A stretch of DNA of 64,000 bases from Paramacrobiotus metropolitanus (Eukaryota; Tardigrada; Eutardigrada; Parachela; Macrobiotidae), in contig NW_026570481.1 in assembly GCF_019649055.1 (NCBI RefSeq), positions 21,597 through 85,596 of the forward strand. Direction: 5' to 3'. The position numbers and the translations under genes were made by a program. Shown here piece by piece: positions 18,955 to 42,361 of the stretch. Below the pieces are notes generated by a model. That model saw only the letters and a list, made by a program, of their open reading frames with translations, was not told the origin of the DNA and did no database searches. Each line of letters starts with the position of its first letter. Within the stretch, counting starts at the first letter, position 1.

Positions 18955-20198
18955 TGCCTCTGGGGGGATGCCGAGCTCCTGTGAGGCTGGACACACTCCC
19001 GAATCCACGAGAAGACGACGGTCGCCGGTGTCTGTGTGTGCTCAAAAACATCAAATTCTCTTAATCCATTTTATCACATCAATTACATAAAGGCACAATT
19101 TCATTTAATACGATGTGAATAAAGAGATCCAATTATAAAAATACTATCATAAAACAGATCAACAGTTAAACAGATCAACAAAAGTATGAACCAAATGTAG
19201 ACTAGGATCCTCCATTTCTGACTCGTAAAGGTCACAGGTCCTGTCCACCGTTTTCCGCACATTGGCCCATTCCGCTCCGTTGAGCAATTTCGCGCATCCG
19301 TAATGCGACTTTCATCACAATCCGCTTGAGAATCAGGTGCGTATCAAGTACGACTTAGGAATACTGCTTCACTCTTTGGAATATGGTGCGTATCATTCGT
19401 ACGACTTCAAAATGAGATCCAATAAAGGTCATGGAGGGACGTCAATGAAGACAAGCGTAGTTCGCTTCCTCCCTAATAAAGGTCATCCTTTGTTGAGATG
19501 ATCCGTTGAGATGTGCGGCTCGTTTTGGGTTAATGGTCCCAAAGGTCATGCGACTTGAATTCCGATACGGTGACTCTGTTGGGCAATTGATGATCCCAAA
19601 GGTCATCCCACTCGTCAAAACTTCTGTTAAAGGTCATGGAGGAACTTAGCCGATTTTCTGCGGCTTCAAGCACTTCTTGCTTGCCTCCTGGTAAAATTTA
19701 CAGTTTGACTTTTCCGTCGCACATCCAACTTCAATATGCCTCGAGCGGCCAGAGTGCCGGCAAGTTTACCGTAGCATCTCTGATGGGGCCGGCTAATTAC
19801 CGGATTGAGTTTACCCCATAAAATTTCCACCTTAAATCTTTGACTCTTGTTCGCCGCTTGTGGCTTACGTTAGTACGAGAAATCCGGCTTGATTACCGTA
19901 GTTTTTCTCGTTTTAATTTTAACACTGAATCGCTTGAAAAGAGTGCCGGCATAGTTTACCGTAACAACTCTAATGAGGCCGGCTTTATAGACCGAATCAA
20001 TTTCAACCCCAATAGATATTCCACATGATTTCTTTTAGGCAATTCTGTGCTATAAACGCTGCAAACAACAAATACACAAATACAGTTAATGTTAACATGT
20101 CACGTGTCGCGCCCTTTATACAACACCATTTTAATCTTTGTGACGTACCGACAAATGCCGTAGACGTCCTTTTAATAGTGTGATCCTAACGATCAGCA
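18955..20198 (-). other. 3' non-coding region of the LTR element
   Basis: No long frame is open here. Six exact AAAGGTCA octamers read on the plus strand, at 19227, 19424, 19478, 19541, 19598 and 19629. This is the opposite strand from most copies in the coding body. A ~65 bp direct repeat lies at about 19754-19818 and 19943-20010 (shared GTGCCGGCA-AGTTTACCGTA and GGCCGGCT). A shorter repeat, GGTGCGTATCA...GTACGACTT, occurs near 19340 and 19387. I see no strong polypurine tract next to the LTR. Confidence 0.7.
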
Positions 20199-22964
20199 CT
20201 ATTCCATTTCATTTGAATCGCCCTGGCCATCTCTCGGCGGGCGTTTCTTAGCGCTTTCCGGTTGGTTTCGATCGGAAGTTCGGTCAACTGGTTCCGTCGA
20301 GTCAACTTCCATGACCTTTGTCGGGTCAACTTCGCGCTGGCCACGACCTTTACCTTGGCGACTTCGCTTAACCGCCTCAAGTCGATGGCGTGCGTCATTT
20401 TCTTCGAGTCGCAGTCTTCGGTTATCAGGGTCTTCCGCCAATCGACGCTGCACGTCGGCGAGATTATCCCGCAGCTGTTGGTTTCGGATGCCGCGTCGTC
20501 CCATCTGGTTAGGCGCACGGTCTGGGCGACGGTCACTTTTCTTCACTAAGAATTCATCAATGTAAGTTTCGATTCCGTCCACCGGTTCGACGTAATCGCT
20601 TCCCAGAGAATCTTTGATCTTATTAATCCTTTCTTCTACTTGGGATGCGTGGCGCTGTGTCAAGTTGCCCTTTTCCATCCGTGTCTTACATTTCTTCAGC
20701 GCCTTCCGAGCCGTATGCGCTATGCTGATATGTTCCATCGGTTGTCCCAACTTGGCGACATGAGCTCGGAAGAACGGTGGAATGTCGTCCTTCATGGTAT
20801 TAGACACTAATTGATTCTGTGTCTTGTAATGTGCCAGTCTCGCAGCAAAGACCTTTTGCCCCATCCTTTTTGCGGCATAGTCCTTAGGATCCACCTGTAG
20901 TCCTATCGATGCCCTTGCTGCAAGCAACTTGAAGGCTGGATTCACATGTCGTAAAACAAACTGAGCCACGTATTCTTGGCGTTCGGGATAGTCTCTGTAG
21001 TAGAACTGTGTCATCCCGATTGGGTCAGTTGTGTCCAGCGGTACATCCAATAAACTTAAATCCACCAAACTGTGTAGCCCATTCCGTCTGATAGGGAGAT
21101 AACAGTCCCGTACTGAATCGCGGTGGATGAATAATCGACGAAAAGTTCCTTGTTCCACTCCCTGTTTAATCTCTCTCGCATAACCTGAGTCAAGTAGGAA
21201 TTGGCTCAACTGTCTCAGAATTGTGAGGATCTTGTTAGCTTCGACCGAATCCGATTCAATACCAAAGTATCGACAGATTTCGACCGTTTGCTCATCGATA
21301 TCAGTCGTGTTGTATTCCATATCAATACTTTCAGGACGTCGGTTGTCAAATCTGGAGTTTTGTCGCTGATCAGCCTGGCGATAATTATCCGGTTCTCGTT
21401 GACCTTCCAGTTCACGTTGTTCTCCTGACTCGGGCTGCGACGGTTCATTACTCGCCGGTGAAGCCGGTTGAAGGTCACTATCCAAAATCACGTTTCGTCG
21501 ATGGGTCACATTCTCTTGAGACGCGGTTTCGACAACTGAGCCAGTGCCTTCCATCGCGTCATCTTCTTGTACGGCGCTCACAATTGGATCCACAACGTGA
21601 ACCACTGACTCCACCCGCTGATACTTTGGGGGTGAATCTTCCCGTTCAGTGCTTGATGACCTTTTACTTGCGCCCGAGTCAAAGGTCGCATAAAATGCGG
21701 CTCTCTGTTGCCATCTCTTATCCTGTGGGTCAGGCGTTCGATTTCGCGTATGTTCACGTCTTTTATCCCATGACCTTTCGGGTGTTGACATCCTGACGTT
21801 ACGATTCCGGAATGCGACTCCCATCGGCACCTGATGCCCTTGCTTTTCAGGCTCTGTACGGAATGTCTCCGCACGCCGTTTTTCTTCACGTCCTCTCGTC
21901 GCCGCCAAAATCTTTGCCGTATCGATTTTCCTTTGAATACTCATTTCTGTAACTTCGTCTCCATGGCGCACCCATCCTCTTCCGCCACGGTAATCTCTGT
22001 CATGAGAGCGTTCGCGTGACCTTTCGTTGCGGTAGTCACGTGTCCTCTCACGAGAGTGTTCGCGTGACCTTTCCCTCTGTCGTTCAGAAGTTCGCTCATA
22101 TTCTCGTGAATGTCCGCGTGACCTTTCTCTATGCGGGGGCGAACGTGGTCGTATAAAGCCTTCGTCCCGTTTAAAATTCCTGAATGCCTGCAGCACATCG
22201 CTTTCGGTTCGGCGAGATTTACGTAGGTCATCCATACGTCTTTCGACTTCCTTCTTTATGTAGGGTGCCGGCGCGAACCCGTCTTGAAGTCGTTTCTTCT
22301 CCCGCAACAGCATTTTGAATACCTCGTCTGACATGGCAGCTGGATCTTTCGTTATCGTTTCAATTTGTATGATAAGTGATTGTCGTACAAGTTGCATTTC
22401 GTCTTCGTTAAGGCTGGCCATGCCCGTAGGTGCAACTAAACTCGATGTGCTGGGCAGCCCCTCTCGTGCAGCCTGTTCACTTGCTCTCTTATTTTCCGCA
22501 TTAATTTTCGCGCGGATTTCGTCTTCCATCTGCTGAGCTCGCATCTTCGCTTGGTCTTCTTCAAATTTCTTCCGATACGCGTCTGTCTGTGGACACTTCA
22601 ACGGCTCCAAGGTGTCATCCCAGCCAGGTTCGTTGTTTCGGATCGCTTCTCGATAACGATCTTCGAATAGCATTCGCTCTTCTACTGGGATGCTGCCGTA
22701 ATTTCTTGCGCTTATGAGATTTCGAAAAACGTCCAAGTTCCCACGTTTGGCTTCCATGATCCCAACAAGCGTGACGGTATGTGGGTCTTCCAGCTTGTGA
22801 ATACAAGTGTAGCAAGGGAATTTCTTTTTGTTGTTCCTTAAGCAGTCCGGACACTTTGGATTATAGCCCGTAAACTGATCGATGTCTGCCGCCATTCCCG
22901 AACGTTTAGAAGGGGCTTGACCTTTTTGTGCCATCTTTCTCTTCAATCTGCAATTATAAAACAA
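20199..22964 (-). CDS. Element ORF C: zinc-ribbon and RS-rich protein, ~910 aa
   Basis: This is the last ORF before the 3' LTR. The first ATG is at 22932. A splice-acceptor-like TTTATAATTGCAG lies just upstream, so expression from a spliced RNA is plausible. Near the N-terminus a CPDC...CYTC pair could bind zinc. A helical region and an S/R/E-rich stretch follow, with repeated ERS and RSRE units like SR splicing proteins, partly written by the AAAGGTCA octamer. The C-terminal half (from about EICRYFGIESDS) is a compact globular-looking region. The tail is basic and ends in charged repeats. I do not recognise a family. It has no membrane helix, so it does not look like an envelope protein. A nucleic-acid-binding accessory protein is the best inference. 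Confidence 0.65.
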   Translation of the reverse strand: MFYNCRLKRKMAQKGQAPSKRSGMAADIDQFTGYNPKCPDCLRNNKKKFPCYTCIHKLEDPHTVTLVGIMEAKRGNLDVFRNLISARNYGSIPVEERMLFEDRYREAIRNNEPGWDDTLEPLKCPQTDAYRKKFEEDQAKMRAQQMEDEIRAKINAENKRASEQAAREGLPSTSSLVAPTGMASLNEDEMQLVRQSLIIQIETITKDPAAMSDEVFKMLLREKKRLQDGFAPAPYIKKEVERRMDDLRKSRRTESDVLQAFRNFKRDEGFIRPRSPPHRERSRGHSREYERTSERQRERSREHSRERTRDYRNERSRERSHDRDYRGGRGWVRHGDEVTEMSIQRKIDTAKILAATRGREEKRRAETFRTEPEKQGHQVPMGVAFRNRNVRMSTPERSWDKRREHTRNRTPDPQDKRWQQRAAFYATFDSGASKRSSSTEREDSPPKYQRVESVVHVVDPIVSAVQEDDAMEGTGSVVETASQENVTHRRNVILDSDLQPASPASNEPSQPESGEQRELEGQREPDNYRQADQRQNSRFDNRRPESIDMEYNTTDIDEQTVEICRYFGIESDSVEANKILTILRQLSQFLLDSGYAREIKQGVEQGTFRRLFIHRDSVRDCYLPIRRNGLHSLVDLSLLDVPLDTTDPIGMTQFYYRDYPERQEYVAQFVLRHVNPAFKLLAARASIGLQVDPKDYAAKRMGQKVFAARLAHYKTQNQLVSNTMKDDIPPFFRAHVAKLGQPMEHISIAHTARKALKKCKTRMEKGNLTQRHASQVEERINKIKDSLGSDYVEPVDGIETYIDEFLVKKSDRRPDRAPNQMGRRGIRNQQLRDNLADVQRRLAEDPDNRRLRLEENDARHRLEAVKRSRQGKGRGQREVDPTKVMEVDSTEPVDRTSDRNQPESAKKRPPRDGQGDSNEME

Positions 22965-23262
22965 TCCATCATAGTAACCTTTTCGACGTTAATCCTTCCC
23001 ATGTTAAGGCTTTCTATCATTTTTACGCCTATTCCGTTACTGAGCTGAGGCTTTCCTAGCTCCTGCTGCCTTTTCTATCACTGTAACGTGGTGACCTTTC
23101 TCACGTTATCAGCACTTTCTGACTACTGTGACCTTTTCTATTAGTCCTAGTACTGCTTTCAGTTGACCTTTCGTAACACTTTTCCTTTTCGTTTTAAATT
23201 ATTTTATGCTTTTTCTGTAATATGCAGGGTTCATTACTCGCTGCATACTACACTCGATTAGT
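22965..23262 (-). other. Spacer between element ORFs B and C, rich in the octamer
   Basis: About 300 bp with no long frame. Three exact TGACCTTT copies (plus strand) lie near 23091, 23143 and 23167, with further near-matches around them. A splice acceptor for ORF C is possible at its left end. Confidence 0.6.
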
Positions 23263-23948
23263 TCACTCGGATTCTTTCGTCGATGGTTTATACGGCTTGA
23301 AATCGATTCGGCCATCTGGCTTAATATGAAGCACTTCGTCCGAGATCAAGGCTTCAACGGCATTCTTAATCCACTCCTTATCGCTTTCAATATTCAATTC
23401 TCCCAATTCATAATTGACGGCCATGAAGTTCGAAAGGTCATTCCATGACGCGCCATTGGTACCACCAATGGCGTCCAGAGCCACATCTGTGATGGCTATC
23501 TTCCGGGCCTCCAGTTCCATTTTCAGTCTGGGCGTTCGTTCCGTGCCCTGTTTCGGAAGGTAGTAGACGACTTTGTTGTCTTTGTTGTATTTACATCCCA
23601 ACTTTCCTTCCTTATATGCTCGTTTGAGAGCTCGTTCAGTCATGTTAAGTGACGACCTTCCGTTCGTATTTATTGCCACTTGTCTTTTCAGGTCTGTCCC
23701 AAGCATTTCTTTTCCCGAATAATCTGGAGTGCAGCTTGGACTTCGTTCCATGTGCGATTATTCACGTCCAATGCCGGCCCTAACGTGTAATCTGTAGCCT
23801 CCTTTGCCGGTGTACCGCTACTTTTCTGGGAGGATGTCGAGTCCGTTGGGTCAGCCGTCGCTGTCTCGTCGATCCTCAGCTTTGCCAGTGATCCTGATGA
23901 TGACCCCGCCGATTTTGGTTCGGCTGTCTTCTTCTCCTCTTGCGGCAA
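23263..23948 (-). CDS. Element ORF B: winged-helix (linker-histone-like) protein, frame-broken
   Basis: Two overlapping frames, 23948-23688 and 23751-23263, appear to be one gene interrupted by a one-base shift near 23700-23720, next to an AAAAGAAA run. The upstream part is acidic and serine-rich and ends in a predicted helix. The downstream part has two similar segments. The second contains ALDAIGGTNGASWNDLSNF, then NYELG, EWIKNAVEALIS and LHIKPDGRIDFKP. The order (helix, G-x-S turn, Y-x-x-x-Y-like helix, long helix, G-containing hairpin ending in F) resembles the H15 winged helix of linker histones H1/H5. This is a pattern judgement only. A DNA- or chromatin-binding role is inferred. Confidence 0.5.
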
Positions 23949-23990
23949 AGTCTTTTGACCTTTTAGATCGCCGACCGATTTCGATCGTTC

Positions 23991-26900
23991 CTACTCAAAG
24001 ACGTCCTTTAATGGTATGAACAGTGATTTGTGAAACACCTGGCGCGCCGAATCCGCTTCAGCTTCTGCCGCTGCCTTATCCATCGGGAGCATGACCTTTT
24101 CTTTCTCCCGTTTATCTGACGTCTCATGACCTTTCGGTTGATCTTCTGCGGTAGTTCCAGATGTTTCTTGACCTTTCGACTGTTCACCTTTTTCTGTCGC
24201 AGGTCTAGAAGGAGCCGTTGTTGTAGTATCGTCATCACTTCCCGATTCCGAGTCCATTGGGCCTTTTGTCTTCGATGAAACTGTGACCTTTTCCATATCC
24301 TGACTGTCGGACATATTACAGTGGATCTGTCTTTCCGGTGGTATTAGACCAACTCTCGTGTATCGGATCGGGTGTCCTTTATTTGCGTTTGTTGTAGCAA
24401 GGATATTCTGTTTAATCAATTTTGGCAATACACGCTCGGTTGCCGTGTCGATCTCCTTTATCATCCCATTCCCGTCATTCCAAACTGCGTTGGTATATTG
24501 GCTAATCCGATGGCTTGTTGATCCTAACGGGCTTGTCATTCCTGCGATTGCCCTTTCTACTCGCATTGGGACCGCTTCATTCGGAGTTGTCAGCGCTTTA
24601 TCCGAACTGGCTGGTCTGAACAACTTGGCCTCATACGAGAAACTCGGATGCTTCTGTATAAGTTTTCCTGCGTTCCGCGCGAATTCCAATACGACGTCGA
24701 ACTTTTGTTTAGTGAAGCTACGATGTTGTTTCTTCAAATACGTCTTCAGGCCTGCTTTAAATTTAGATGTCACCGATGCTGTTCTTATTCGTGTGAAATT
24801 CTTTTCAGCTCCATTATACGCTCTGATCACTTCATCGACCGTGTTCAAATTATCATCATCGGGACCATCAAATTCTTCGTCTGAGGTGAAGTCCAGTTCA
24901 CTCTCTCCATCTGGTTCAGTGTAATTAACCGTCGCTAATGCGTCGATTTTCGTGACTGTTTTGCCCTTTCCTTTGGTCTTAACGGGTTCGCTCTTTGCTT
25001 TTTTCCCTTTATCCAGAGCTTCCGCTAAGCTTCTTGGTTCAGTGGTTCTTGATCGTGTCGTTTTCGAGTCCGTGTGTGACCTCGCACTAACCGTCGAAGT
25101 GCTTGGAAGGCTCACTTCCGATGCCTCCGATTCACGCGACGTCTCCCGTTTCGCTTTTTCTCGGATCTGTTTATCCTTGCGCTCCTTTGGCGTGGACGCG
25201 GAAATGACAATAGGGACAGCTTGTTTCACCGCTATGACCTTTCCTTTGGTTTTTGATGGCTCTGCTGTAGCCGATTGGATAACTTTCTTTGACTTCGTAG
25301 GTGTCGATGACCTTTCTTCGACTTCACCAACTGACTCGTCCAATATCTCCACATCGTGAGACGCCGGTTCATCTCTTTTCTTCTTCCCGGTGCTTGTGCT
25401 ATCGCTTTCATCACCGCTCTTTTTCTTCTTATCGTCTTCCTCCTGTCGTTTCTTCTTTCCTTCTTCCTCCCGTCGTTTCTTGAGAAAATCGCCTTTCTTA
25501 ACCTTGTCCCGGTTCATGGCCTCTTCCAATCTGGGCGCTTTCCTCGGTTTGACTTTTGAGGGCTTGACCTTTAAGGGCTTTTTATGCTTATCGGCCGTTT
25601 CTTCGTCTGAGCCTTCTTCCTCAGGTGGGTCCTCGTCTTCCGACTCTGGTTCGTCGTCACCAGGTGGATTACAATGGGCACAGTTTGGTTCATCACACTG
25701 AAGGTGCTCATGACTTCCTTGGGCAATCTCAAGTACTCTTTGTAGCGAACGTCTGGCCCCTCCTGTTTCAGTTACATTTGCCGACGTGCCCTGCGCCTCT
25801 TCCGTCTCTCCGGCTCCGCCTTCTTGTGCCGGGGGATGAATTTCCAAGTGCGCTGTCTCCTTCAGCTGTCCCTGTGAAGCGACCTCCCACAAAGGGTTCT
25901 TCTTAGCGTCGTAAAATACCGTTTTGTACGATCCGTCTTCCATTCGTCTTGTGAGTCGGAAATGTGCTCCATCGATCTCCGCTCGATGCCGCATCATGCT
26001 GATGAGTGTACTTGCTTGGACCACCGCATCTTCCCGGTCACTTTCAGGTATCAGATTCCATAACTGTTCTATGGCTGCCTGATTCGCATTTCGAGCGCTC
26101 TCTTCCGATACATCCCATGGGGCATATGGAACCGGGTCTCCTGTTATTGGATCGACTATCACTGCAGTTATGGTTTCCACAGCTTCTCCATTACCACCGA
26201 AAAGTCTGAGGGTGACCTTTCTGCTTGTCGCCTCTGTATATCTCAGGACCGACTCATAATCATCTGACGATCGTTTCTTCGGATCTGGATCCGCCGTCGG
26301 TTTTGAGCGAGTTCTCTCTTTGATCAACAGTTTGCCGTCCGTTGTGTATGTATATGCCAAGTGGTCATCATCTGTGCCCACTTTGATACGGATCCATGCA
26401 TCTTCTTCGGTTGCAACTTTAGATACCACGTGCTTCATCATCTGAACGATAACTCTTGGGTTATGACGTTCTTCTGGGGGAATAAACTGTAGCGCCTCAT
26501 TGACTATCGTTTTTGACTCTTTCCCAATGGCATCCTTGACTGACCTATCCGCGAGGGGATTATACGAATCGATCTCTTTGTTCGTTTTCTTATCGACTAT
26601 TCGTGCAGTGACCTTTCGTTCTTTATGATCTTCCCCAGTGTATTTGGCCGTGAAACTTCTACACTTCGGGAATCGAATCTGACCTTCTGTTCCTTTCGGC
26701 GTGGGTGGTACACTCTTTCTACCCACTGGAATCGGGGCCTGTGGCTTTGCCGGCTCAGCTGGTGTTGCTTTGCTTTCTGTGGGCTTCTTTGTTCGCTGCC
26801 CTTTCTTATCGGTTTCTTTTGGGCTTGTCGTCGGTGATCTCACTCTTTTTCCACTCTTCGTGGTGCCACTGGATGGTTCTGTGACCGAACTAGTACGTCC

Positions 26901-28160: not shown

Positions 28161-28286
28161 TAACTGTGCTTACCTTCTATAAAACGAAACAATAAAGGTT
28201 AACTTTTTGCACATTGGTGACCTTTCTTTTTGCCTTCCCAACTCCTATCTTTAATTTAATGTGACCCCTTATTTATGTCTATGTGG

Positions 28287-31989: not shown

Positions 31990-32213
31990 CTCTTCGATAT
32001 GCTTTGTTATAAACTCGCGGCCTGTCCAACTCGTTCTGGCCGGGTTACATTTACTGGTTTCGCATCTCCCGTATCAATTACGTGGGTGACCCCTTTCACA
32101 TCTCCATACGGTTTCCTTGATGTGGGTAAGACTTTCCAGAATTCCCAAAACGCGTTGTACACGTCGTTTTTCTGCTCTTAAGGTAAGGTCAGGTCCCAAT
32201 TTCAGGTTTTCGA

Positions 32214-32582: not shown

Positions 32583-32790
32583 TCTAGCTTTTCCACTTTC
32601 AATCTTCTGACTTTAATATCCTTTTCTTTTCCTCATCTACTTCGTCATCTTCATCCAAGTCCATTAAATCCTCTTGCTCCGAAAGGTCACTTACACCTGA
32701 ATCTTCCGAAGTTGTTGAGTTATCGCTTGAACTCGTCCACTCGGAGTCGGGTTACTGCTCTCATATTCTTGTGCAGTGGCTTGACCTTTG

Positions 32791-33804
32791 TCACGCCTTT
32801 TCGAGTGGACGCTCATCAACTCCTTCATCTTCTGATGAAAGGTCACTTTCGTTTTCTCGCGAATCGCTAAGTTTTTCGCTTTCGAATTTTTTGAGCAGGG
32901 GTTTGTCCCCTTCTTTTGCCTTTCGCCCAGTTCGTGCAGCGACTCTCGGGTGACTCCTTGCTACTCGAATTCTAGTTGGTGACCTTTCTAATTGGTCGGA
33001 GTTTGACCTTTCTTCGTCCGATTTTGACTTTTCCAGTTCATTTATTTCTTCGCGACTCGTTAATGGCTTTTCGGTCAACTCGACCGGCGGGCATTCCTCA
33101 CCGTTATCGAGTGACCTTTCTGCGTTTTTTGCCTCAGTTGCTGGGTTTTGCTGCTCGTTCGATATCCTTTCAACTTCCTCTTTGAACCTTTTCCACATTT
33201 CACCTCTGTCCGTTAACATTTGCGCAATATCGAAAGCCGACTTTGAACTTTCTTCTGTTTCATTCGATTTCCCTTCGGCTATCTCTTTAACTGATTCCTC
33301 TTTCTCTGCTTCTTTGACATTCCCTTTATTGGTTTCATCCTGTTGAACTGTTTCGTAACCTTTAGGTCGTTTAGGACCAACAAAGATGCAGTTTGCCATC
33401 AGCTCTTCAGTGACCCATTCATCATTCGGAATCGTTTCGTACATGCACCACGTATCACCACCTCGTTCTGGGTAGTCCACTCCGTCTGGATCTGGTGCAA
33501 AGGTCACCTTTTTCTTTTGCATCAAACCCGGTAACCTTCTTTTCCGAGTTACCTGTAGTTCTCGCATTTCTTTTACGTCAAATTTGGGGATTTCTTCCTC
33601 GAATTTCTTCCAATATTTCTCGAATGCTTTTTCGTTTCCCTCTTTTAACGCGTTGTAGTACACTTCAAGTGATTCGTAGACAGGTGTACCAAGTCCTGCC
33701 GGGAAGATGATCGTTCTCCCTTCACCTTTATACATGTGGTTCACACGGAAGTCCCAGAAAAGATCAACTCTCGCTTCTTCCCACATTTCTCCTTCCTCGG
33801 TCAT
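32791..33804 (-). CDS. Element ORF between protease and RT, charged, unknown
   Basis: 337 codons. The first ~130 residues look globular (LFWDFRVNHMYKGEGRT, YETIPNDEWVTEELMANC). The rest is a hydrophilic E/K/S-rich region with repeated ERS units that coincide with the octamer. No family is recognised. Position and composition suggest a spacer or accessory domain of the gag-pol polyprotein. Confidence 0.5.
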   Translation of the reverse strand: MTEEGEMWEEARVDLFWDFRVNHMYKGEGRTIIFPAGLGTPVYESLEVYYNALKEGNEKAFEKYWKKFEEEIPKFDVKEMRELQVTRKRRLPGLMQKKKVTFAPDPDGVDYPERGGDTWCMYETIPNDEWVTEELMANCIFVGPKRPKGYETVQQDETNKGNVKEAEKEESVKEIAEGKSNETEESSKSAFDIAQMLTDRGEMWKRFKEEVERISNEQQNPATEAKNAERSLDNGEECPPVELTEKPLTSREEINELEKSKSDEERSNSDQLERSPTRIRVARSHPRVAARTGRKAKEGDKPLLKKFESEKLSDSRENESDLSSEDEGVDERPLEKA

Positions 33805-33820
33805 TTCTTCTATCTCTCGT

Positions 33821-34513
33821 TCAAATCTCTTTTCCTGTTGCTACCGGATCGAGAGGATCTTGGATTCCTTTCTCGACACGTTGCAACCAATGGTTTAGCC
33901 ATCTGCCTCTTCCAATTATAAAACTTTCTACACATGACAACCACGTTCGATATCTATTCCAGTGATACCGTTCGATGTGTGGTTTCCACATTTCGTTTGT
34001 CCGCATGATGCTTTTCGCTTTCTTTTGGGCATGACCTTTAAGGTCTGCTAATGCGGCATTACATCTTAGCCATTCTGAAGGGTCATCTTGAGAGGCATTT
34101 TCACAACATTCCGCGCATTCCCATTGTGGTTGCACTCTGCACGGATCCTCAAAGTAACCGTGGTGACAGCTCCCGGCTCGTTCTTCTGGAGTTAATGTCC
34201 TTTGACTCGCTTCAGGTTTAACCTGTTCCTGTACTGTGGTATCTTCCTCACATTCGATTGGAGTCACGCTTTTATCCTCAGAGGATATTTCAATGACCTC
34301 TGGTTCTTTTTCTGTTCGTTGACCTTTCAATTGTTCGAGTGCCTTGTCGCGGATTTCGCTTGTAAACATCTGTTCTTCTTCAACTATTCGTTTCAAAACT
34401 CGTAACCTTTCGCTCTTTTTATCCTTCCCCACTTTAGCCGTCTTTATTTCCAGTGCCTCTGGTACTGGGATAGCTTGCAACACCTTTTTCTGTGTCTCCT
34501 TGCTTACATTCAT
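33821..34513 (-). CDS. Element ORF, cysteine-containing spacer protein
   Basis: 230 codons. The N-terminal part carries one IPVPEA repeat and a coiled segment. The middle has CHHGYFEDPC...WECAECCENA, a cysteine/histidine cluster that could bind zinc. The C-terminal part is tryptophan-rich (HIERYHWNRYRTWLSCVE), an architecture seen in retroelement capsid helices, but I cannot assign it. It overlaps its upstream neighbour by 80 bp in another frame. Confidence 0.45.
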   Translation of the reverse strand: MNVSKETQKKVLQAIPVPEALEIKTAKVGKDKKSERLRVLKRIVEEEQMFTSEIRDKALEQLKGQRTEKEPEVIEISSEDKSVTPIECEEDTTVQEQVKPEASQRTLTPEERAGSCHHGYFEDPCRVQPQWECAECCENASQDDPSEWLRCNAALADLKGHAQKKAKSIMRTNEMWKPHIERYHWNRYRTWLSCVESFIIGRGRWLNHWLQRVEKGIQDPLDPVATGKEI

Positions 34514-34823
34514 CTGCGATCATACTTCTCCCGTCCGGGAGAAATATGATCGCCTCATCGGTATCTGGCGCAAGCGGTTCCTTTTTCTTTTCGTTAACTT
34601 CTTTGAGCTTTCCACTTTCACTTTTCTTCTCCGGTGCCTCTGGTACCGGGATTATCCGTTGGCTAATCTCGTTCGGCTGCACTCTCGTCATTCCCGGTGC
34701 CTCTGGTACTGGGATGACCTTTTCTCTTCCCTTTTGTGTCGGCATTGTCCGATTTAATGTGTTTTCGATCTCCTGCTGAATCATTTGCAACTGCTCAAAT
34801 GGTGACAAATCTTTTCGCGTCAT
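34434..34823 (-). CDS. Element ORF with PVPEAP repeats
   Basis: 129 codons between protease and the cysteine-containing ORF. It has two copies of IPVPEAP. Two more copies lie just outside it, one in the preceding frame change (about 34845) and one in the next ORF (about 34453), so the repeat spans three frames. The DNA phrase behind it is CCAGTACCAGAGGCACCGGG on the minus strand. Probably a disordered polyprotein linker. Confidence 0.45.
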   Translation of the reverse strand: MTRKDLSPFEQLQMIQQEIENTLNRTMPTQKGREKVIPVPEAPGMTRVQPNEISQRIIPVPEAPEKKSESGKLKEVNEKKKEPLAPDTDEAIIFLPDGRSMIADECKQGDTEKGVASYPSTRGTGNKDG

Positions 34824-34861
34824 CTTTTTCTTTTCGTTTCCCGGTGCCTCTGGTACTGGGA

Positions 34862-37186
34862 TTAGCGTTTATTAACCGTTTGAGAATTTCCCGTCTGTTT
34901 TACAAGTTCGGTGACCTTTCCGACTTGAACTTTGGCGACTGGTTTGGGGTCATCTTCTTTCTCTTCTTCGCCTTCATTATCCATCAGTACGAACTTCTTC
35001 TCTAAGAAGTCGAATCCCAGTAGCACTTGTACGTCGTCGCACTTCGGTCGGACGTAGAAGGAATGTTCGCTTGTCTTCTTTCGTAAGGTCACTGGTGCTA
35101 CGCAGTAATGCGTCACCAGGAATCCTGACGTTCCGCTAATTCCGTTTATTTTCACCAGTCTATCTGGTGGCAATGGGAGCATATGAAGTCCATTCTTCTC
35201 GCAAAACGGTTTGCTGATCAGCGACGTCTCAGCGCCGGTGTCCAGCATTGCGTTGACCTTTATATCTCCCACTTTCACTTCATGTGTGTATGCTTCAATT
35301 CTTTTGGGCAATTTTCCGTTTTGAATCTTCAAGGTGTGAATCTTACATTTCACAGGGATAAGCGATACTGGTCCCGGGTCCATATCGGGAAGCACTTGTC
35401 CTTTTGCTGGAGTGCTGTGACCTTTCAGTATCTCGCTCAGCTTATCAATCCTATGTGGAACATTAGTCCGAACGTCGTAATATTTTCGCGGCTTTTCTTT
35501 ATTTGTTCGCTTCTCTGTAGCCATTTTATCACCGATGACCTTTTCCACGTTCTGCACTTGCTCATTTGCTTTTGTGCTCTCCATGTGACCTTTAGTCACT
35601 TCATTTATCGTTTGATGGATCAGTTCCTCTTTGCGATTTTCATTTCGTTTATCTCTCAACTTCTCAATGACTTCACTTGTTATTTGGTCCGCTCGCTTCA
35701 GTTCGTCTTCTTCGCTATCTTTCTTCTCATCTGGTGACCTTTCATATGTAACCATGTCATATCCCTTTTCGGTCATCCATTGCATCACTTTTGCAGATAC
35801 TTCATTGTTCGTTTTCGTTGGGTCAATTTGCGAAGACATCCCGTCTGTTCGGGCTGGTGACTTGTCATTGGCATCCTTTTGCAGTGCTTGTGATAAGTCC
35901 CGTGACCTTTCAACTGCGCTACTCTGTTGCGTTTGCGCTATCTCATTTGACCGTCCTTTTTGTTCATTTTGCGCTAAGTCCTGTGACCTTTCGTTGCGCT
36001 TCATGACAAATCCGCCACCTGTCAGCTTTTGTATGGGGACTTTTTCTCCATAATTCGGCGGTTTATCCTGTGGTGGAGCATTGCGTGAATGATTCCAGTC
36101 AGCGAATGTCTTCTTATATTCCTCTGGATTGAATACTGGGATTGGGTTCGGTGACCCTTGCGCTGGTTTCCCGGTAACCAACTCTTCTAGTCGCTTTCTT
36201 TCACATTGCGTTCGCAACTGTTGCATGTCCCAGTAGTCGTCTTGTGACATTTTCGCTTTCTGCTTTGCCTTCGGCGTTACGGGTATCCACATCCCGTGAT
36301 TGCCGTTCGGTCTGTAGGCCACTTTTTGCCACTTTTCCTTCTGTTGCAGCGTTATTGCATCTACAAGTGAGTCATCGGAGTTCTGTTGTGCCAATTCGCC
36401 ATTCTTTTGCTGCGCTGTTCGCAGTGTCAAGTCTGTTTCTTGACCTTTTAACACGACGCTGTCGCCGTGACCTTTCGCATTCGCACTCGCTCCTTGACCT
36501 TTAACGTGGACTTTTCCAACAGAAGGTGACCTTTCATCTTTACTAATGACGGTGATATTCTGCTTAATCCATTCTTGCCTTATTCGCTTCTCTTCTTCGT
36601 CTTCTGAACAATTCCAAAACTTTGGCTTTGGTTCCCCGTAACAATCGCACCTTGGCTCATTCGCCTTGTCGTTTTCTGCCAAGTATTTCCGGAATTTCGC
36701 GTGTTGCTCATTTCCCTCTTGCGCAGTATCGTTCTGCGGTGGTGAATTTTGGTCTTTCGATTTGCCATTTATCTGTTTCCGGAACCATTCGTGGTGCATT
36801 TCCACTTCTTCTGCGGTATCAGTTTGTGGTTTCTTCTGGTTTAACAGCGCTTGTTGAATCTTGGCATTACGTAATGCACGACGTTCAGCTAGCACTTTCT
36901 CGCTGCAATACGGTGACCTTTCATTTTGCTGCACTTTTTGCAGTGTCGCGCTACCGTCACGACAATTTCCACTCGCAGTACCATTCTGCGGTGACCTTTG
37001 ATTCTGTGACGGTATCCTTATAACCGTTCCATTTTCTTTTTGCGATGACGGCATCCATATAGCCGTTTCTCTTTGCTGTGGCGGCATCCATCTAGCCGTT
37101 TCTTGTGGTTGCGGCATCCATATAGCCGGTCCATTTTGCTTTTTCGCTGACGGCATCCATATAGCCGTCGCAGTGGTCACATTCAC
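34862..37186 (-). CDS. Long linker with IWMP repeats and retropepsin
   Basis: About 770 codons open without a clear ATG start (first ATG around 37153), so it is likely a downstream part of the polyprotein. Its start has five copies of an IWMP/RWMP/IRIP unit of ~15 residues. A long Q/N/K/E-rich region follows. The aspartic protease sits near the C-terminus: AMLDTGAETSLIS at about residue 645 and LLGFDFLEKKFV at about 722, the catalytic and flap-distal hallmarks of retropepsins. The protease would release gag and pol proteins in the particle. Many ERS, KGH and KVT units come from the octamer. Confidence 0.8.
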   Translation of the reverse strand: MNVTTATAIWMPSAKKQNGPAIWMPQPQETARWMPPQQRETAIWMPSSQKENGTVIRIPSQNQRSPQNGTASGNCRDGSATLQKVQQNERSPYCSEKVLAERRALRNAKIQQALLNQKKPQTDTAEEVEMHHEWFRKQINGKSKDQNSPPQNDTAQEGNEQHAKFRKYLAENDKANEPRCDCYGEPKPKFWNCSEDEEEKRIRQEWIKQNITVISKDERSPSVGKVHVKGQGASANAKGHGDSVVLKGQETDLTLRTAQQKNGELAQQNSDDSLVDAITLQQKEKWQKVAYRPNGNHGMWIPVTPKAKQKAKMSQDDYWDMQQLRTQCERKRLEELVTGKPAQGSPNPIPVFNPEEYKKTFADWNHSRNAPPQDKPPNYGEKVPIQKLTGGGFVMKRNERSQDLAQNEQKGRSNEIAQTQQSSAVERSRDLSQALQKDANDKSPARTDGMSSQIDPTKTNNEVSAKVMQWMTEKGYDMVTYERSPDEKKDSEEDELKRADQITSEVIEKLRDKRNENRKEELIHQTINEVTKGHMESTKANEQVQNVEKVIGDKMATEKRTNKEKPRKYYDVRTNVPHRIDKLSEILKGHSTPAKGQVLPDMDPGPVSLIPVKCKIHTLKIQNGKLPKRIEAYTHEVKVGDIKVNAMLDTGAETSLISKPFCEKNGLHMLPLPPDRLVKINGISGTSGFLVTHYCVAPVTLRKKTSEHSFYVRPKCDDVQVLLGFDFLEKKFVLMDNEGEEEKEDDPKPVAKVQVGKVTELVKQTGNSQTVNKR

Positions 37187-37266
37187 TGCAGTACCATTCT
37201 GCAGTGGTGACCTTTCCCTTTTATCCGGTGGTTTAGGGTCGGGTCGATCAGTAGGCTCACCGGTGC

Positions 37267-37518
37267 CTACTGATCTTGCCCGTTTCCCTGAACCGGCGCC
37301 CCGCCTTGTTGCGCGCCTTGCACATTTCCTTGTTGTTCATTCACCGGGCCACCTCCGTTTGGCTGGCCACCACCCTGTTGGTAGTTTCCGCCTCCGCCAT
37401 TTCCACCGCCTCTGTAATTTCCGCGGCCATAGCCTCTGTTCCTTCCTCTGAAGCCGCCGCGGCCAAAGCCACCGCCGCGATAGCCGCCTTGGCCGCCCCC
37501 ATTTCCATTTCCATAGTT
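37267..37518 (-). CDS. RGG-box glycine-rich segment (separate frame)
   Basis: A third frame, open between a TAA near 37520 and a TAG at 37267-37269, encodes a glycine-rich chain with GGYRGGGFGRGGFRGR and RGYGRGNYRGGG, then a G/Q/N-rich end. RGG boxes bind RNA and promote condensates. It follows the zinc knuckle, so it looks like the tail of the nucleocapsid, shifted by an indel. The alternative frame through the same DNA is alanine-rich and is less convincing. Confidence 0.55.
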   Translation of the reverse strand, partial: NYGNGNGGGQGGYRGGGFGRGGFRGRNRGYGRGNYRGGGNGGGGNYQQGGGQPNGGGPVNEQQGNVQGAQQGGAPVQGNGQDQ

Positions 37519-37569
37519 CCGTTACCTTGCTGAAAGTTCGCTTTCGCCTGGTACCATTGCGTGATCAGG

Positions 37570-37755
37570 TCATATCCATTTGCGACTGCTTGGCGCCAAC
37601 CACCGAGCCCACAGTCGTTGCCACTCGTTGAAGGCAAACAGGTTTGGGTTCTGTTCCGGTGGTGTATTGGCGAATTTGCATCCCTGGGTCTGGTGGTTGC
37701 CATACATACAGTACTGGCACATCTGCACATTGTTCGCCACCCATCCGTCAATCAT
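37570..37755 (-). CDS. Nucleocapsid zinc knuckle
   Basis: The frame shows CQYCMYGNHQTQGC, a perfect CX2CX4HX4C retroviral-type zinc knuckle. It lies directly after the capsid frame and before the RGG box, the normal gag order. The knuckle binds the element's RNA. The frame is short because it is cut off from its neighbours by frame changes on both sides. Confidence 0.75.
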   Translation of the reverse strand: MIDGWVANNVQMCQYCMYGNHQTQGCKFANTPPEQNPNLFAFNEWQRLWARWLAPSSRKWI

Positions 37756-37882
37756 CTGGAACTTAAACTCAGTTCGTGAATCTCTGTTCCCTTGTTGACC
37801 CTGATGGAAGTTCCCTGACCTGTTGATTCCCTCCTGTGGTATTCATCCATTTCTGTGGTGCACCATTCTGACCTTCTGTACC

Positions 37883-38938
37883 TCACTGAGCTGCTGCCTG
37901 TATCGCCGCCACCATTGCATATGTTATCGGTTGTCCCGTCTGACTGTCGATAAAGGTCACCTTTTCGGTGACCCTCTGACCGGAGTCTCCACGGTACTCA
38001 ACCGGCTGCTGGACTTGGCGCAGCTGCCATTCTCTGTTGCGGTACATTTTCGACTTGCCTTGGCGAATGGTCACGTATTCCTGATTACGTTGACCTTTAG
38101 GCGCCTTATATTTCTCTTCGCCGGTGGCCCAATGTCGGAAGAAGTCCTTCACGTCCGTTGGCGTCTTGCACTTTTGTATCCGCAATGCCTTGTAGAGTTC
38201 ATTGTCTCCTCTACATCCTTCAATTAAGAATCCGACTGCTTGTTTCTCCGTGATGATTCTTTTTGCTTTAAATTGCATCATCGCCTGATAATACTGGTCC
38301 AGCGATTCCTTTCCGAGTTCAAATTTCCTTGCATAGGCCTCACGTAAGCCTAAGACTTCTTCATCTCGATCACCATATTCATCTTTGAATTTGTCCATCC
38401 ACTCTGTTATTGAGTATTCAATTCCATCTTCGGCTGCGATGTCCTTTTCCCCTTCAAACCATGTTTTTGCAGGACCTTTCACCGCACTTGCTATCTCAAT
38501 CATGATCTGATCGTCCGTGAGCTGGTAAGTCCTTTGTGTTTCTTTCACTAATCGTGTCCACCCACTCACTGTGTCACGACTGCCGTCAAAGGTCATGAGT
38601 GGTGTTTTCCTGGCCATCGAGTTAAGTGCTTTTGTCAATTGCACCGCTGTATTTTCTGCTCTCTGGTCATCGTCTTCTTCGCTACTTCCATCATCACTTT
38701 GATTTCGTTTCGCCTTTCCATACCGGGATTTCCTAGGACGCTCCTGCCGGCTGGGTGGTCTGTCCCGTCGCCCTTCATCGATGAACACATTTGTTTCCAT
38801 GTGCGGGGGAAATTGTGAAGGGTCACCTCGACTCATATGCGGGTAACTTTCCGATGGTGGTTCTTTGTCATCTTTAGCCTTTTCCCCGTCCTTTTCGTTT
38901 TTGACACTTCCTCTGCCAGTACCAGTTCGTAGCGGCAT
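37883..38938 (-). CDS. Gag capsid protein
   Basis: 351 codons from an ATG at 38938. After a charged leader comes an all-helical Ty3/Gypsy capsid: LMTFDGSRDTVSGWTRLV, then ASAVKGPAKTWFE, EWMDKFKDEYGD, ESLDQYYQAMMQFKAKR and AVGFLIEGCRGDNELYKAL. These correspond to the retrotransposon gag N- and C-terminal lobes (F-D-G at the start, the W-F helix end, F-x-x-x-F/Y and the L-I/G turn). The end holds KVTFIDSQTGQPITYAMVAAI. It would assemble the particle. It overlaps the coiled-coil ORF upstream by ~100 bp in another frame. Confidence 0.82.
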   Translation of the reverse strand: MPLRTGTGRGSVKNEKDGEKAKDDKEPPSESYPHMSRGDPSQFPPHMETNVFIDEGRRDRPPSRQERPRKSRYGKAKRNQSDDGSSEEDDDQRAENTAVQLTKALNSMARKTPLMTFDGSRDTVSGWTRLVKETQRTYQLTDDQIMIEIASAVKGPAKTWFEGEKDIAAEDGIEYSITEWMDKFKDEYGDRDEEVLGLREAYARKFELGKESLDQYYQAMMQFKAKRIITEKQAVGFLIEGCRGDNELYKALRIQKCKTPTDVKDFFRHWATGEEKYKAPKGQRNQEYVTIRQGKSKMYRNREWQLRQVQQPVEYRGDSGQRVTEKVTFIDSQTGQPITYAMVAAIQAAAQ

Positions 38939-39423
38939 ATCGAAGTGGAAGCTTTACCCGTGCCCGTTTCATGCGCCTTGCTGTAACTGGGCGGGGGCGA
39001 TTCCACCGTTGATGTTCTAACTCCGTGTTGTAGGAGCTGTTCATCTTTGTGTTTGTTGGACATTTGAAGAGCTTTATTCTCATCTTCAAGGCGCTTAATC
39101 CTTAAATCGAATTGTTCTTTCTCATTCTTCAGGTTCTGATTCTCTTGGTTGACCTTCGACATCTGCTGATGCAGTTGAAGCGTTTTGTCTTGAATGACCT
39201 TTTCAGTATCATTTTCCACTTTCCTGATGTGTCCCGCCAACTGGGTCACATCCCTTTCCAACGTCATGTATTCTTCGGCTGCTGCTTTCAGCTGATTTTT
39301 CGTCACGGTGACCTCATCTTCTCTTGTCATCGCCGTTTGTGTCATATCAATCAGCTCCGTATTCAGTCTGATAATCTCCTGTGTCTTCTGATGGACCGTT
39401 TGTTGCCACTCTTTATCCTTCAA
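38833..39423 (-). CDS. Coiled-coil ORF, second part
   Basis: Nearly all of this frame is heptad coiled coil (LNTELIDMTQ, VNQENQNLKNEKEQFDLRI). It overlaps the end of ORF 1 by four bases at GAGTTTTGAAGG and has no ATG at its start, so it reads as a continuation after a -1 shift. That could be programmed frameshifting or an indel in the T4 run. The last third carries PPPSYS and a basic tail and overlaps the capsid start. Confidence 0.6.
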   Translation of the reverse strand: MKDKEWQQTVHQKTQEIIRLNTELIDMTQTAMTREDEVTVTKNQLKAAAEEYMTLERDVTQLAGHIRKVENDTEKVIQDKTLQLHQQMSKVNQENQNLKNEKEQFDLRIKRLEDENKALQMSNKHKDEQLLQHGVRTSTVESPPPSYSKAHETGTGKASTSICRYELVLAEEVSKTKRTGKRLKMTKNHHRKVTRI

Positions 39424-40895
39424 AACTCGAGCACTGTGACCTTTTCGTCCAAAAGGTGTGTCTCATGTTCCCACTTCATGCCTTGCTCGGCAATTGTCTT
39501 AGCAGTCTTTTTCAACTCGGTATTCTCTTCGGTGACCTTTCGAACATCTTCTTTCAACGACTTGTTCTCTTCCATCACCTGCTTAATTTCATTCTTCAGC
39601 CTCACACCTTCAGTGGCTGTGAGCTCCCTCAGGTCCTTAGCCACTTTGACAGCGTCATCGGCTCTCTTCTGATGATCTTGTGATTCTTTCTGAAGGGTTC
39701 CAATGTTCTCGTCCCGTAACTTCAATTCATTTCTCAACTTAAACACTTCGTTGGTGTTTGTCAGCAATCGTTGGGTCACGTCGACGAGTTTGGCCGCGTA
39801 TTCGTCTCGCTTGGCTTCCGCTTCGGTGACCTTAAGTTTAAGTGAGTCACATTCGTCCTTCAATTCCGCTAAGTGCCGTGACCTTTCGGCTGATTCCTCT
39901 GACATGCTCTCGTTGAGGTCACTGACTGCAAGATGACCTTCCATTTCTCTGTCATCCACCATTTTCAAGTACTCTTCAGCGAGTTCTTTTTGACGCTCGT
40001 ATTTGATCTTCCATTCGTCCGCTGCACTTTCCAAATCCACCTGTTGTTGTTCCAGCTCATAAATACGAGCATCCAGAGATCCTATCCGATTTTGATATTC
40101 CTGTTTCTTCTTCGTCACTAGGCCTTCCTTGGCTTCGAGTTCTTCTTCCAACTCCTTCACGCGTCTCTTGAGAGTTGACGTGGGGCTGTTCGGTGATGGC
40201 GGTCTAACATTGATGACCTTTCCAGTTTGTGTCCTTTCAATAAGGTGCTCGGGTATGTCCTTAAACGGTGTCATCCCTTCAGCACGGTCAGCTTCTTTCA
40301 TCGCGGTCTGGAAGGACATATTCATTGTCGCTTCATCATCCGTGAAGTATGACTCGTTCGATTCGTCTGAGACCATCGGAGTTGCCCAAAAATCATCACC
40401 GACAGTCTTATCGTGCAGTGAAAGGTCATCCAATCCCAGTTCAGCCAATTCCATTTCTGTGACCTTTGTCCTGCCAGCTTCCGACTGAACCAGGTTTACA
40501 TTTTTATCCTGTTCAGTAGTTCCGATAGTGGTAGCATCCGACTGTGATGCTCCAACTAGTTCCACTCCTTTCCCTGTGGGTATTTCCTCCCCGGTGACCT
40601 TTTTCTGGTTCATCGGATCGCTTCCCGCCGTAGACGCGGGAGTGTGCTTCTGGTCGTCGCTTGAACTTTCCTGATTGGCGACCGCCTCGAGCGCCTTCTG
40701 ATAAGTGCTATCAGAGCCTCGTGAATCCTTCTTCTCGAATGCCTTGGGCGCTCGAGTGTTCCGCTCATGTCCAACTGGACGTGAGTACGGGTACAGATCC
40801 TTTTTGTATGGATTTGGTGCGCTTTGCTGTGAGCTACGGGAGCTTTTGCTTCCCTGACTGCTGTTAGATGTCGGTTCCTCTTGTTCTCTGTCCAT
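39420..40895 (-). CDS. Element ORF 1: serine-rich head and long coiled coil, 491 aa
   Basis: The first ORF of the element opens with an ATG at 40895. Residues 1-130 are disordered and S/Q/K-rich. Residues 130-250 are acidic, with DDEATMNMSFQTAMKEADR. Residues 260-490 are almost continuous coiled coil (RRVKELEEELEAKEGL onward). It resembles the N-terminal gag coiled coils of some retroelements but no family is recognised. It would help particle assembly or bind another element protein. The octamer encodes KVT at several coil positions. Confidence 0.7.
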   Translation of the reverse strand: MDREQEEPTSNSSQGSKSSRSSQQSAPNPYKKDLYPYSRPVGHERNTRAPKAFEKKDSRGSDSTYQKALEAVANQESSSDDQKHTPASTAGSDPMNQKKVTGEEIPTGKGVELVGASQSDATTIGTTEQDKNVNLVQSEAGRTKVTEMELAELGLDDLSLHDKTVGDDFWATPMVSDESNESYFTDDEATMNMSFQTAMKEADRAEGMTPFKDIPEHLIERTQTGKVINVRPPSPNSPTSTLKRRVKELEEELEAKEGLVTKKKQEYQNRIGSLDARIYELEQQQVDLESAADEWKIKYERQKELAEEYLKMVDDREMEGHLAVSDLNESMSEESAERSRHLAELKDECDSLKLKVTEAEAKRDEYAAKLVDVTQRLLTNTNEVFKLRNELKLRDENIGTLQKESQDHQKRADDAVKVAKDLRELTATEGVRLKNEIKQVMEENKSLKEDVRKVTEENTELKKTAKTIAEQGMKWEHETHLLDEKVTVLEF

Positions 40896-42348
40896 GTTGA
40901 TCGGATAACTTGGACGCTCCTGTCAATTGTTCTCACACACACGTTATTGTATGGTTTATTCAATAATCCTAAAGGTCACTCTGAACCTCCGAAATTTTTC
41001 TAAGTCCTTATTAAAGGTCACTTTTCGACTGAAAAATTTCGACTAAGTCCTTTGTAAAGGTCACTTTTTCGGTAAAAAGTTCGAGAGATTTGCCCTAAAA
41101 GGTCACTTTCGGACAAAACTTCGAAACCGCTTTTACAGCTCAGAATACGTTAGCGAATGAAATCCTACAGCTACTGATATCGCTGTACTATTAATCAACT
41201 CAATTCCAACTCCGTTAAAGGTCACCGTTGATCACTTTCAGATCATAAAGGTCACTAAAATTAGGTCAATTTGATCAATTCGAGCTTTTTGGTAAAGGTC
41301 ACTTTTCAAAGTCAAAAGTCAACTTCTGGTCTCAAAGGTCACTTTCCGACTCAACTCAACTCAAAGGGTCACTTTCCAGTTCAATTTCTGTTAAAAGGTC
41401 ACTTTCCGCTCAATTCCAGTTAAAGGTCACTTTTAAGCTCAATTCGATCAAAGGTCACTTTTCCTTTGTCTCCACTCAAAAGGTCACTTTTCGTCTCAAT
41501 TATCTTATCTCAAATCAAATTTCCCATTACAGCTAGAGTTCAGCGGAAAATCCCCATTCGGGTTGTTTACTTCTTTCTGATTGGTCCGCTAGCTCAAAAT
41601 ATTCAGTTCAAATTTCGGCCAATCACAGCTCAGATAACTGACCAATCACGTTATTCCGTTAAAAATTTTTATCTGCCTGACGTCACGGTCAACGGCCAGA
41701 CATGCGCGCCGCGTGCAAAACTCCGCCTACTTCTACGCTCAGCTCAGTACGGACCAATTAAAAATGAGAATTTTACCATCTAACCAATCCCGTAATTAAT
41801 AACGGGTTTTCTACCTGTTTCCTCGTCCGTTCCACGAGAATCGATCCAGATGATCCAGATTCTTCTTCCACTGTCCGTTCCCGCGCTGCCGCCGGTTTTA
41901 CCGTAACGGTTGTGCCGCACGCTTTTGGTCGGTTACTGTGCCGGCTGACTGCCGTAGCAACGGTAGTGGTGCTCTACTCCAGTTTGGAGGAGTCTGATCT
42001 GTCTTTTCCGTGCGCCCCTTTCAGCGCTTCGCCTCCTGTGGCCCACGGCTTAGGATTCGCTGAATCCTTGCCGAGTAACGGTGACACCAGTGCAGGTCTT
42101 CGCTGAAGACTCGCACCGAGAACACCGCCGACTGAACTCTTGAACTCTTTCACAGCAGTGGAACAGCACAGGTCTTCGCTGAAGACACTGCACCGAAACC
42201 AAGGCTGGTAATCCCGTCCGATGAGGAACTTGCACCGCTTGTGGTGTTGCGCTTTGCTGTCGGATAGACCTGTGCCTTACTGGTCGGGTTTCACGTCAAA
42301 TAACAGGCCAACTTTGCCTGACACAAATCAAATCAGAGAACCGCTGTC
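40896..42348 (-). other. 5' leader of the LTR element
   Basis: About 1.45 kb with no long frame. It holds the dense AAAGGTCA cluster (next entry) and two copies of the perfect hairpin GTCTTC-GCT-GAAGAC at 42096-42110 and 42172-42186. Such palindromic loops are typical of retroelement dimerisation or packaging signals, but the role here is inferred. Confidence 0.6.
40971..41486 (-). repeat. AAAGGTCA cluster in the leader
   Basis: Twelve exact AAAGGTCA octamers read on the plus strand at 40971, 41013, 41056, 41098, 41217, 41247, 41294, 41334, 41394, 41422, 41450 and 41479, plus one AAAGGGTCA. The first four are spaced 42-43 bp apart and most are followed by CTTT. In the element's RNA they read UGACCUUU, the complement of the copies in the coding body. 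As DNA, AAAGGTCA is the NBRE, the monomer site of NR4A nuclear receptors. Confidence 0.9.
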
Positions 42349-42361
42349 GGCTCTGCTACCA
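42349..42361 (-). other. Primer binding site, tRNA-Met-like
   Basis: On the minus strand TGGTAGCAGAGCC follows the 5' LTR with no gap. On the plus strand it reads like a tRNA 3' end, GGCTCTGCTACCA. The last 11 bases agree with the CCA end of animal initiator tRNA-Met. It would prime minus-strand cDNA synthesis. Confidence 0.8.

Follow-up and report, generated by a model that had tools for sequence, protein, structure and literature searches.

We analyzed a window of 64,000 nucleotides from the tardigrade Paramacrobiotus metropolitanus (the whole stretch of DNA, to which all plain coordinates refer) whose minus strand carries an LTR retrotransposon at 18596-42716. A single 4-nt indel is the sole difference between the 5' and 3' LTRs, and GCCG stands on both flanks of the element (42717-42720 and 18592-18595) as a target-site duplication. 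Pfam analysis placed the domains in the order protease, reverse transcriptase (RT), RNase H, and integrase, which is the Ty3/Gypsy order, and we therefore assign the element to Ty3/Gypsy. Its features are listed below; "octamer" means an exact copy of AAAGGTCA in either orientation, and sense refers to the strand of the element.

18596..18954, minus strand: 3' LTR, 359 nt, octamer-free
19227..19636, minus strand: 3' noncoding array (tail), 6 octamers, all antisense (exact count)
20202..40922, minus strand: coding body, 62 sense and 10 antisense octamers (exact count)
20202..22988, minus strand: 929-codon ORF without a Pfam match, 36% identical to family C (see below) over 352 amino acids
23994..28169, minus strand: 1392-codon ORF without a Pfam match, with a relative in family B (Pfam and family comparison)
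29620..30129, minus strand: integrase H2C2 and core domain (Pfam PF17921, PF00665)
30613..32073, minus strand: RT and RNase H (Pfam PF00078, PF17917, PF17919)
34865..37336, minus strand: gag-side ORF, 824 codons, with an aspartyl protease domain at its end (Pfam PF13975, 3.5e-8)
40971..41486, minus strand: leader array, 12 octamers, all antisense (exact count)
42350..42361, minus strand: TGGTAGCAGAGC, resembling a primer-binding site and immediately following the 5' LTR (read from the sequence), which we take to be of the initiator-Met-tRNA type
42362..42716, minus strand: 5' LTR, 355 nt, octamer-free

Several further ORFs of the element, like those of 1392 and 929 codons, had no Pfam match above the cut-off. 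The few weak matches below threshold included Speriolin_N (18.2 bits) and linker histone (15.6 bits, cut-off 22.4), the latter in a short ORF at 23266-23757. Beside the integrase (H2C2), no DNA-binding domain was found above the Pfam cut-off in the element proteins, and scans of the window with Rfam (gathering cut-offs) and for tRNAs gave no matches. A protein search with the RT returned general relatives, at most 48% identical among the 120 matches listed of 5019. Residues 1 to 600 of the gag-side ORF had two relatives among 8000 scored candidates, both from P. metropolitanus (66% identity with 84% of the query covered, and 90% with 38% covered). The reading frame of the window copy shifts several times. 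Alignment with 29 other copies suggests that many small length differences in a 4.2-kb stretch are private to the window copy, and its frame changes, present despite the near-identical LTRs, would reflect young decay or an assembly error.

Elsewhere in the window, tandem arrays that repeat roughly every 28 to 29 nt cover some 3.4 kb of 1245-4900, with a 103-nt pair at 1245-1450. The region 43909-63946 holds nested inverted repeats around F-box-like genes, with arms of 223 to 902 nt that are 77 to 90% complementary; judged by these arms, it is an inverted gene-family cluster. Two further arms of 138 nt at 46154-46558, 129 nt apart, are 96% complementary, and by this likeness they are a recent inverted duplication.

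An exact octamer throughout the element

The element contains 90 exact copies of AAAGGTCA, 62 sense and 28 antisense, where 1 to 2 are expected. On the plus strand of the window, TGACCTTT occurs 62 times and AAAGGTCA 10 times between 20312 and 40602, and AAAGGTCA accounts for 12 of 12 octamers in the leader (40971-41486) and 6 of 6 in the 3' noncoding part (19227-19636); both LTRs have zero. A preliminary description of this DNA had counted about 62 versus about 10 in the body, 12 and 6 in one orientation at the ends, and none in the LTRs, and our exact counts reproduce these figures without change. Its assertion that the number is far above chance also holds. In 100 dinucleotide shuffles per part, the mean sense and antisense counts were 0.76 and 0.21 for the body, 0.03 and 0.05 for the leader, and 0 and 0.05 for the tail, all below 1, with 4 as the highest single value, and an order-2 Markov model predicted about 2 for the whole element.

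The octamer is strict at all eight positions. Its 24 single-mismatch neighbors occur 0 to 7 times each versus 90 for the exact word, with some modestly over expectation (GAAGGTCA, 7 versus 1.9; TAAGGTCA, 5 versus 0.8). The following base is also restricted: G follows in 0 of 90 copies, where about a quarter is expected, and C in 51 of 90, and this not-G rule applies in either orientation.

The body at 20202-40922 holds 72 of the 90 octamers, 65 of them within ORFs of at least 130 codons. There the 56 sense octamers are spread over the three codon phases (13, 20, and 23), and the 9 antisense octamers occupy the two phases in which they create no stop codon. The use of all three phases by sense octamers shows that selection acts on the nucleotide word and not on an encoded peptide. 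The flanks of body octamers are dissimilar to each other, and their spacing is random, with a coefficient of variation (CV) of 0.93 versus 0.98 for random placement (95% range, 0.79 to 1.23). We tried a regular, nucleosome-like spacing as an account of the placement and rejected it, the body CV falling inside the random range. Of the 12 leader octamers, which read TGACCTTT in the transcript, 9 occur as AAAGTGACCTTT, and 8 of the 11 steps between them measure 28 to 43 nt.

Purifying selection among genome copies

We searched the window's own assembly (169.8 Mb, 533 contigs) for other copies of the element. A piece of the RT gave 437 candidates, and the 40 that were scored are 90 to 100% identical to it. 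The paired-octamer pattern of the leader occurred 869 times versus once for the reversed control. Seven stretches in viral contigs also fit the paired-octamer pattern, with two or three octamers each.

Selection was assessed at 30 loci (the window and 29 others) over a 4.2-kb stretch of pol that includes 16 octamers; together with one pair of leaders and a few tails, this is the extent of the conservation data. At third codon positions, the 29 copies differed from the window copy by 14.5% outside octamers versus 0.7% inside them, and the corresponding values were 2.6 versus 0.2% at first and 1.6 versus 0.3% at second codon positions. Each of the 16 octamers was intact in 25 to 29 of the 29 copies. 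We counted 15 substitutions within octamers where sites matched for codon position predicted 232, and 5000 draws of 16 random eight-mers never gave fewer than 90. The ratio of observed to expected substitutions was similar for sense (10/173) and antisense (5/59) octamers. These results show that, over the 4.2-kb pol stretch, the octamers are under purifying selection at the nucleotide level and that this selection is nearly indifferent to orientation in the body. The preliminary description had named conservation in other copies as the check on its claim; in this stretch the octamers changed at about one-fifteenth of the rate of matched sites, and neutral-rate decay was not seen.

Low divergence reached from about 1 base before the octamer to 2 to 3 bases after it (about -1 to +10, from 16 sites only), a constrained span somewhat longer than the eight-base NBRE, the monomer site of NR4A receptors, which we take AAAGGTCA to be. 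Substitutions compatible with G-U pairing on the RNA numbered 4 versus 71 expected in sense octamers and 0 versus 21 in antisense octamers, and pair-breaking ones 6 versus 88 and 5 versus 53, respectively. G-U-compatible changes are as suppressed as the others, which favors a protein reader over base pairing.

Outside the coding body, the leader compared with one other copy had mismatches at 2 of 96 octamer positions and 127 of 1332 positions elsewhere, with 10 of 12 octamers kept. The tail, in closer copies, had 0 of 48 versus 75 of 1020, with 5 of 6 octamers kept. Two more distant tail copies retained 2 of 5 and 3 of 5 octamers, and there the octamers were hardly better kept than their surroundings (5/37 versus 104/586 and 4/37 versus 108/592 mismatches).

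Sister families and strand orientation

The element of the window belongs to what we call family A, and we read parts of two diverged sister families.

C1:2157001-2178000, sense on the plus strand: family B
C1:201729-220359, sense on the minus strand: family C, with LTRs of about 336 nt

RT proteins are 82 to 90% identical among the families, and ORFs upstream of the RT are 25 to 66% identical. No sequence related to the 1392-codon ORF, the largest without a Pfam match, was found in family C. Families B and C show a nucleocapsid-knuckle pattern; family C has one CX2C...CX2C stretch, which is no more than a match to the pattern. The parts read contain 69 exact octamers in 13.1 kb (B) and 87 in 18 kb (C), followed by G in 1 of 69 and 2 of 87 cases. 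The motif is identical across A, B, and C rather than family specific. In homologous ORF alignments of 25 to 94% protein identity, A and B have 25 octamers in common (A has 40 there, B 57) and A and C have 26 (A has 43, C 57), with overlapping BLAST alignments taken as given and B covered up to its last 6 kb. About half of the positions differ while the octamer and its density are retained, which shows that sites are gained and lost with density kept. With the octamers masked, families B and C (L046-L049) also contain repeated AGGTGGCCA and CAAGGTGGC, 8 each per family where 0.1 to 0.2 is expected, and these are possibly a second motif or a coded repeat.

Body octamers are mostly sense in all three families (62:10 in A, 70:14 in B, and 61:14 in C; 193:38 in total), giving ratios of 6.2, 5.0, and 4.4. 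Markov models of orders 1 to 3 with the octamers masked predicted a sense excess of 4.1 to 9.0 for A, 8.1 to 13.9 for B, and 7.5 to 13.0 for C, and with a 4- to 14-fold excess so predicted, base composition suffices for the body polarity. The ends differ. Cut at the ORF borders, five end regions (three leaders and the tails of A and C; the B tail is not included) hold 35 octamers (12, 7, and 5 in leaders, 6 and 5 in tails), all antisense. The preliminary description had reported a polarity that flips at the coding borders; the antisense ends bear this out, and the sense excess of the body is what base composition predicts. The leaders are partly homologous to each other, as are the A and C tails, and because these arrays are homologous and look tandem-derived, they represent few independent events. 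The antisense ends may be two old events preserved by duplication, as one would draw from this homology and from the one-orientation arrays of VANDAL transposons. In a further A-like copy, the part aligned with the tail has one sense octamer. We do not dismiss the antisense orientation of the ends as meaningless.

Host genes and the candidate reader

Outside the element, the remaining 40 kb or so of the window contains 7 octamers (5685, 10311, 11046, 11117, 11669, 45610, and 54261), where the preliminary description had put the number at about three. Four of the 7 lie in exon-like ORFs of a host gene.

9809..12555, plus strand: CATSPERB gene, 4 octamers (10311, 11046, 11117, and 11669) in two exon-like ORFs (Pfam)

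The second ORF matches Pfam PF15149 (2.6e-30), and the first matches PF21548 below its cut-off; a protein search with the CATSPERB ORF found none of 8000 candidates at an E value of ≤0.001. Synonymous shuffling, repeated 5000 times, gave a mean of 0.32 octamers and never more than 3, versus the 4 observed. Two paralogous host genes (L058 at C1:277k and L061 at C1:332k), 83% identical over 807 nt, have 5 of 5 octamers in common. Three of these, in the form GGTGACCTTTATA, precede the presumed ATG by no more than about 150 nt, one is in signal-peptide-like codons, and one lies further in with the opposite orientation. Genome-wide, TATAAAGGTCAC was found 289 times versus 49 for its reversed control. 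The 30 TATA-linked loci fetched represent 26 separate places (two clusters gave three rows each); 6 loci match element proteins, L065 and L069 match the element tail, and 18 of the 26 places were not recognized as element. Among 8 ORFs near TATA-linked octamers, there was one Pfam match (a C-type lectin) and no common function.

The genome contains the octamer 42,562 times and the reversed word 15,522 times. For AAAGGTCAG, a word avoided by the element, the counts are 4042 versus 2427 for its reversed control (1.7-fold), and for AAAGGTCAC they are 19,414 versus 3461. By our estimate, element copies plus a chance background could explain these totals, which alone therefore do not show host use. 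The octamer does occur in host genes, on the evidence of one window gene, one paralog pair, and the TATA-linked excess, cases that are few and partly chosen post hoc. We also observed a AAAGGTCAG satellite, a word that the element avoids, with 8 repeats at 90- to 91-nt steps (G000, C1:2537724-2538368), and a nonelement stretch with AAAGGTCATCCACCTTTC-like repeats (L053, 458-1470).

About equal protection in both orientations in the body, strictness, the ninth-base rule, the intolerance of G-U changes, and occurrence in coding, noncoding, and promoter-like host DNA together favor a double-stranded-DNA-binding protein. Because the octamer matches the NBRE exactly, a nuclear receptor of the NR4A/HR38 type is the leading candidate. 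We counted 63 zf-C4 stretches in the genome, and a published account gives 42 C4-type proteins for P. metropolitanus (PMC12941274). A search with an approximate NR4A sequence gave a candidate NR4A-like DNA-binding domain, a match that is split over C45:296815-298439 (86% identity for query residues 1 to 29, 73% for 22 to 70, and 67% for 57 to 88). This match was alone among 38 in reaching the end of the C-terminal extension of the query; the best single stretch was another receptor (C22, 52% over 82 amino acids). A host genome with zf-C4 domains and a putative NR4A-like domain, and an element in which no DNA-binding domain beside the integrase rose above the Pfam cut-off, favor a host factor over an element-encoded one.

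We therefore propose, on the sequence evidence, that the octamer is a double-stranded DNA site for a host factor that keeps the element open or transcribed, with an NR4A/HR38-type receptor as first candidate, a proposal that seems to us about as apt to prove right as wrong. The site would be AAAGGTCA followed by any base but G, with C preferred, and a sequence-specific host factor would read it at some 70 to 90 sites per copy, in coding and noncoding parts and nowhere in the LTRs. By coating the whole provirus, this factor would keep it open or transcribed; binding would promote transcription, shield the element from silencing, or do both. The tissue would perhaps be the male germ line, in which other animals have active CatSper-beta genes. 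The preliminary description had offered the element as a platform for nuclear receptors: this DNA reading is the better supported of its two, by conservation in both orientations, the not-G rule, and the host genes, and the receptor itself is a candidate. Against the host factor stand the octamer-free LTRs, where promoters usually lie, and the 35 of 35 antisense ends, which a site read on either strand does not predict. The poorly kept octamers of the two more distant tails, a constrained span beyond the eight NBRE bases, the better single-stretch match to another receptor, and the small number of host cases also count against it. A broader form of the proposal, possible though doubtful, is that AAAGGTCA plus not-G is a 9-bp code of host promoters and certain gene bodies such as CatSper-beta, which a clan of giant retrotransposons has copied about 70 to 90 times into itself, coding sequence included, so that a host program would express or protect the element along its whole length.

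It is fairly unlikely that the element addresses itself, through an octamer-binding protein of its own that lifts silencing, coats the cDNA, or directs packaging or import, with the host copies incidental. Several conserved ORFs without a Pfam match and the subthreshold linker-histone match at 23266-23757 leave candidates for such a protein, and a density kept through turnover, with one octamer common to three families, would suit it. VANC21 binds a dense, one-orientation 9-bp motif of a kind spread by tandem repeats (PMC5735166). However, the only DNA-binding domain recognized above the cut-off was the integrase H2C2, to which families B and C add a nucleocapsid-knuckle pattern, and the largest ORF without a Pfam match was not found in family C. 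The octamer is also the same despite 25 to 66% identity of the ORFs upstream of the RT, whereas VANC motifs differ between families, and it is present in host genes.

The preliminary description had also read the octamers as an RNA address code, in which the ends pair with the body. In the form weighed here, antisense ends would pair with the sense body of the same or a second transcript and so compact, dimerize, or package the 23-kb genome. A 9-bp AAAGGUCAC/GUGACCUUU duplex is possible, and both the antisense ends in five regions and the 193:38 sense excess of the bodies agree with it. The idea is weakened and now appears distinctly improbable: base composition already predicts the body polarity, antisense body copies are about as conserved as sense copies, changes that keep G-U pairs are suppressed like those that break pairs, exclusion of G at the ninth base is no pairing rule, and the octamer also lies upstream of presumed host start codons. 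Recognition of AAAGGUCA in single-stranded RNA by an RNA-binding protein would fit the mostly sense body copies but neither the about equal conservation of antisense body copies nor the wholly antisense ends, and is very improbable. Least probable by far is a peptide repeat, recent duplication, or assembly artifact; the tandem-derived look of the leader and tail arrays speaks for duplication there, and for the body this account is refuted by the three codon phases, the dissimilar flanks, and the presence of the word in many copies and three families under selection against change.

Selection at synonymous sites that holds a single exact DNA word along a retroelement would be a clear natural example of a regulatory code in coding DNA. 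With 90 sites here, many copies, three families, and sharp specificity, it offers a ready-made assay for finding the reader protein, for understanding the continued expression of giant retroelements within the small genome of an animal, and for identifying host genes with a common code. We found no retroelement with AAAGGTCA in such number in the open-access literature, judged by titles and abstract openings and mostly without subscription papers, and within the same scope nothing similar for germ line nuclear-receptor sites, giant Gypsy elements (20 of 315 papers), or tardigrade LTR elements.

VANDALs are DNA transposons. According to the source on the Arabidopsis VANDAL/VANC system (PMC5735166), they resemble the present element in having a short, dense 9-bp motif, in one-orientation, tandem-derived noncoding arrays, and in motif gain and loss between related copies. 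They differ in a motif that is mainly noncoding, in a transposon-encoded binder, and in motifs that change between related families (PMC5735166). Our element is Ty3/Gypsy, its motif runs through the coding body (72 of 90 copies) and is common to three families, and as in a VANC-type system the motif is enriched and held at high density. DNA uptake sequences of Neisseria and Pasteurellaceae are likewise exact short words, far above chance in coding and noncoding DNA; unlike the octamer, they are bacterial, genome-wide, and serve DNA uptake. The leader of Drosophila gypsy has about a dozen Su(Hw) sites outside the LTR, and our element resembles it in placing putative host-protein sites in a Ty3/Gypsy leader, although the gypsy motif is another one and is not known to be spread through the coding body. 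As a sequence match, the octamer is identical to the NR4A monomer site, and NR4A2 prefers C at the 3' side of its site.
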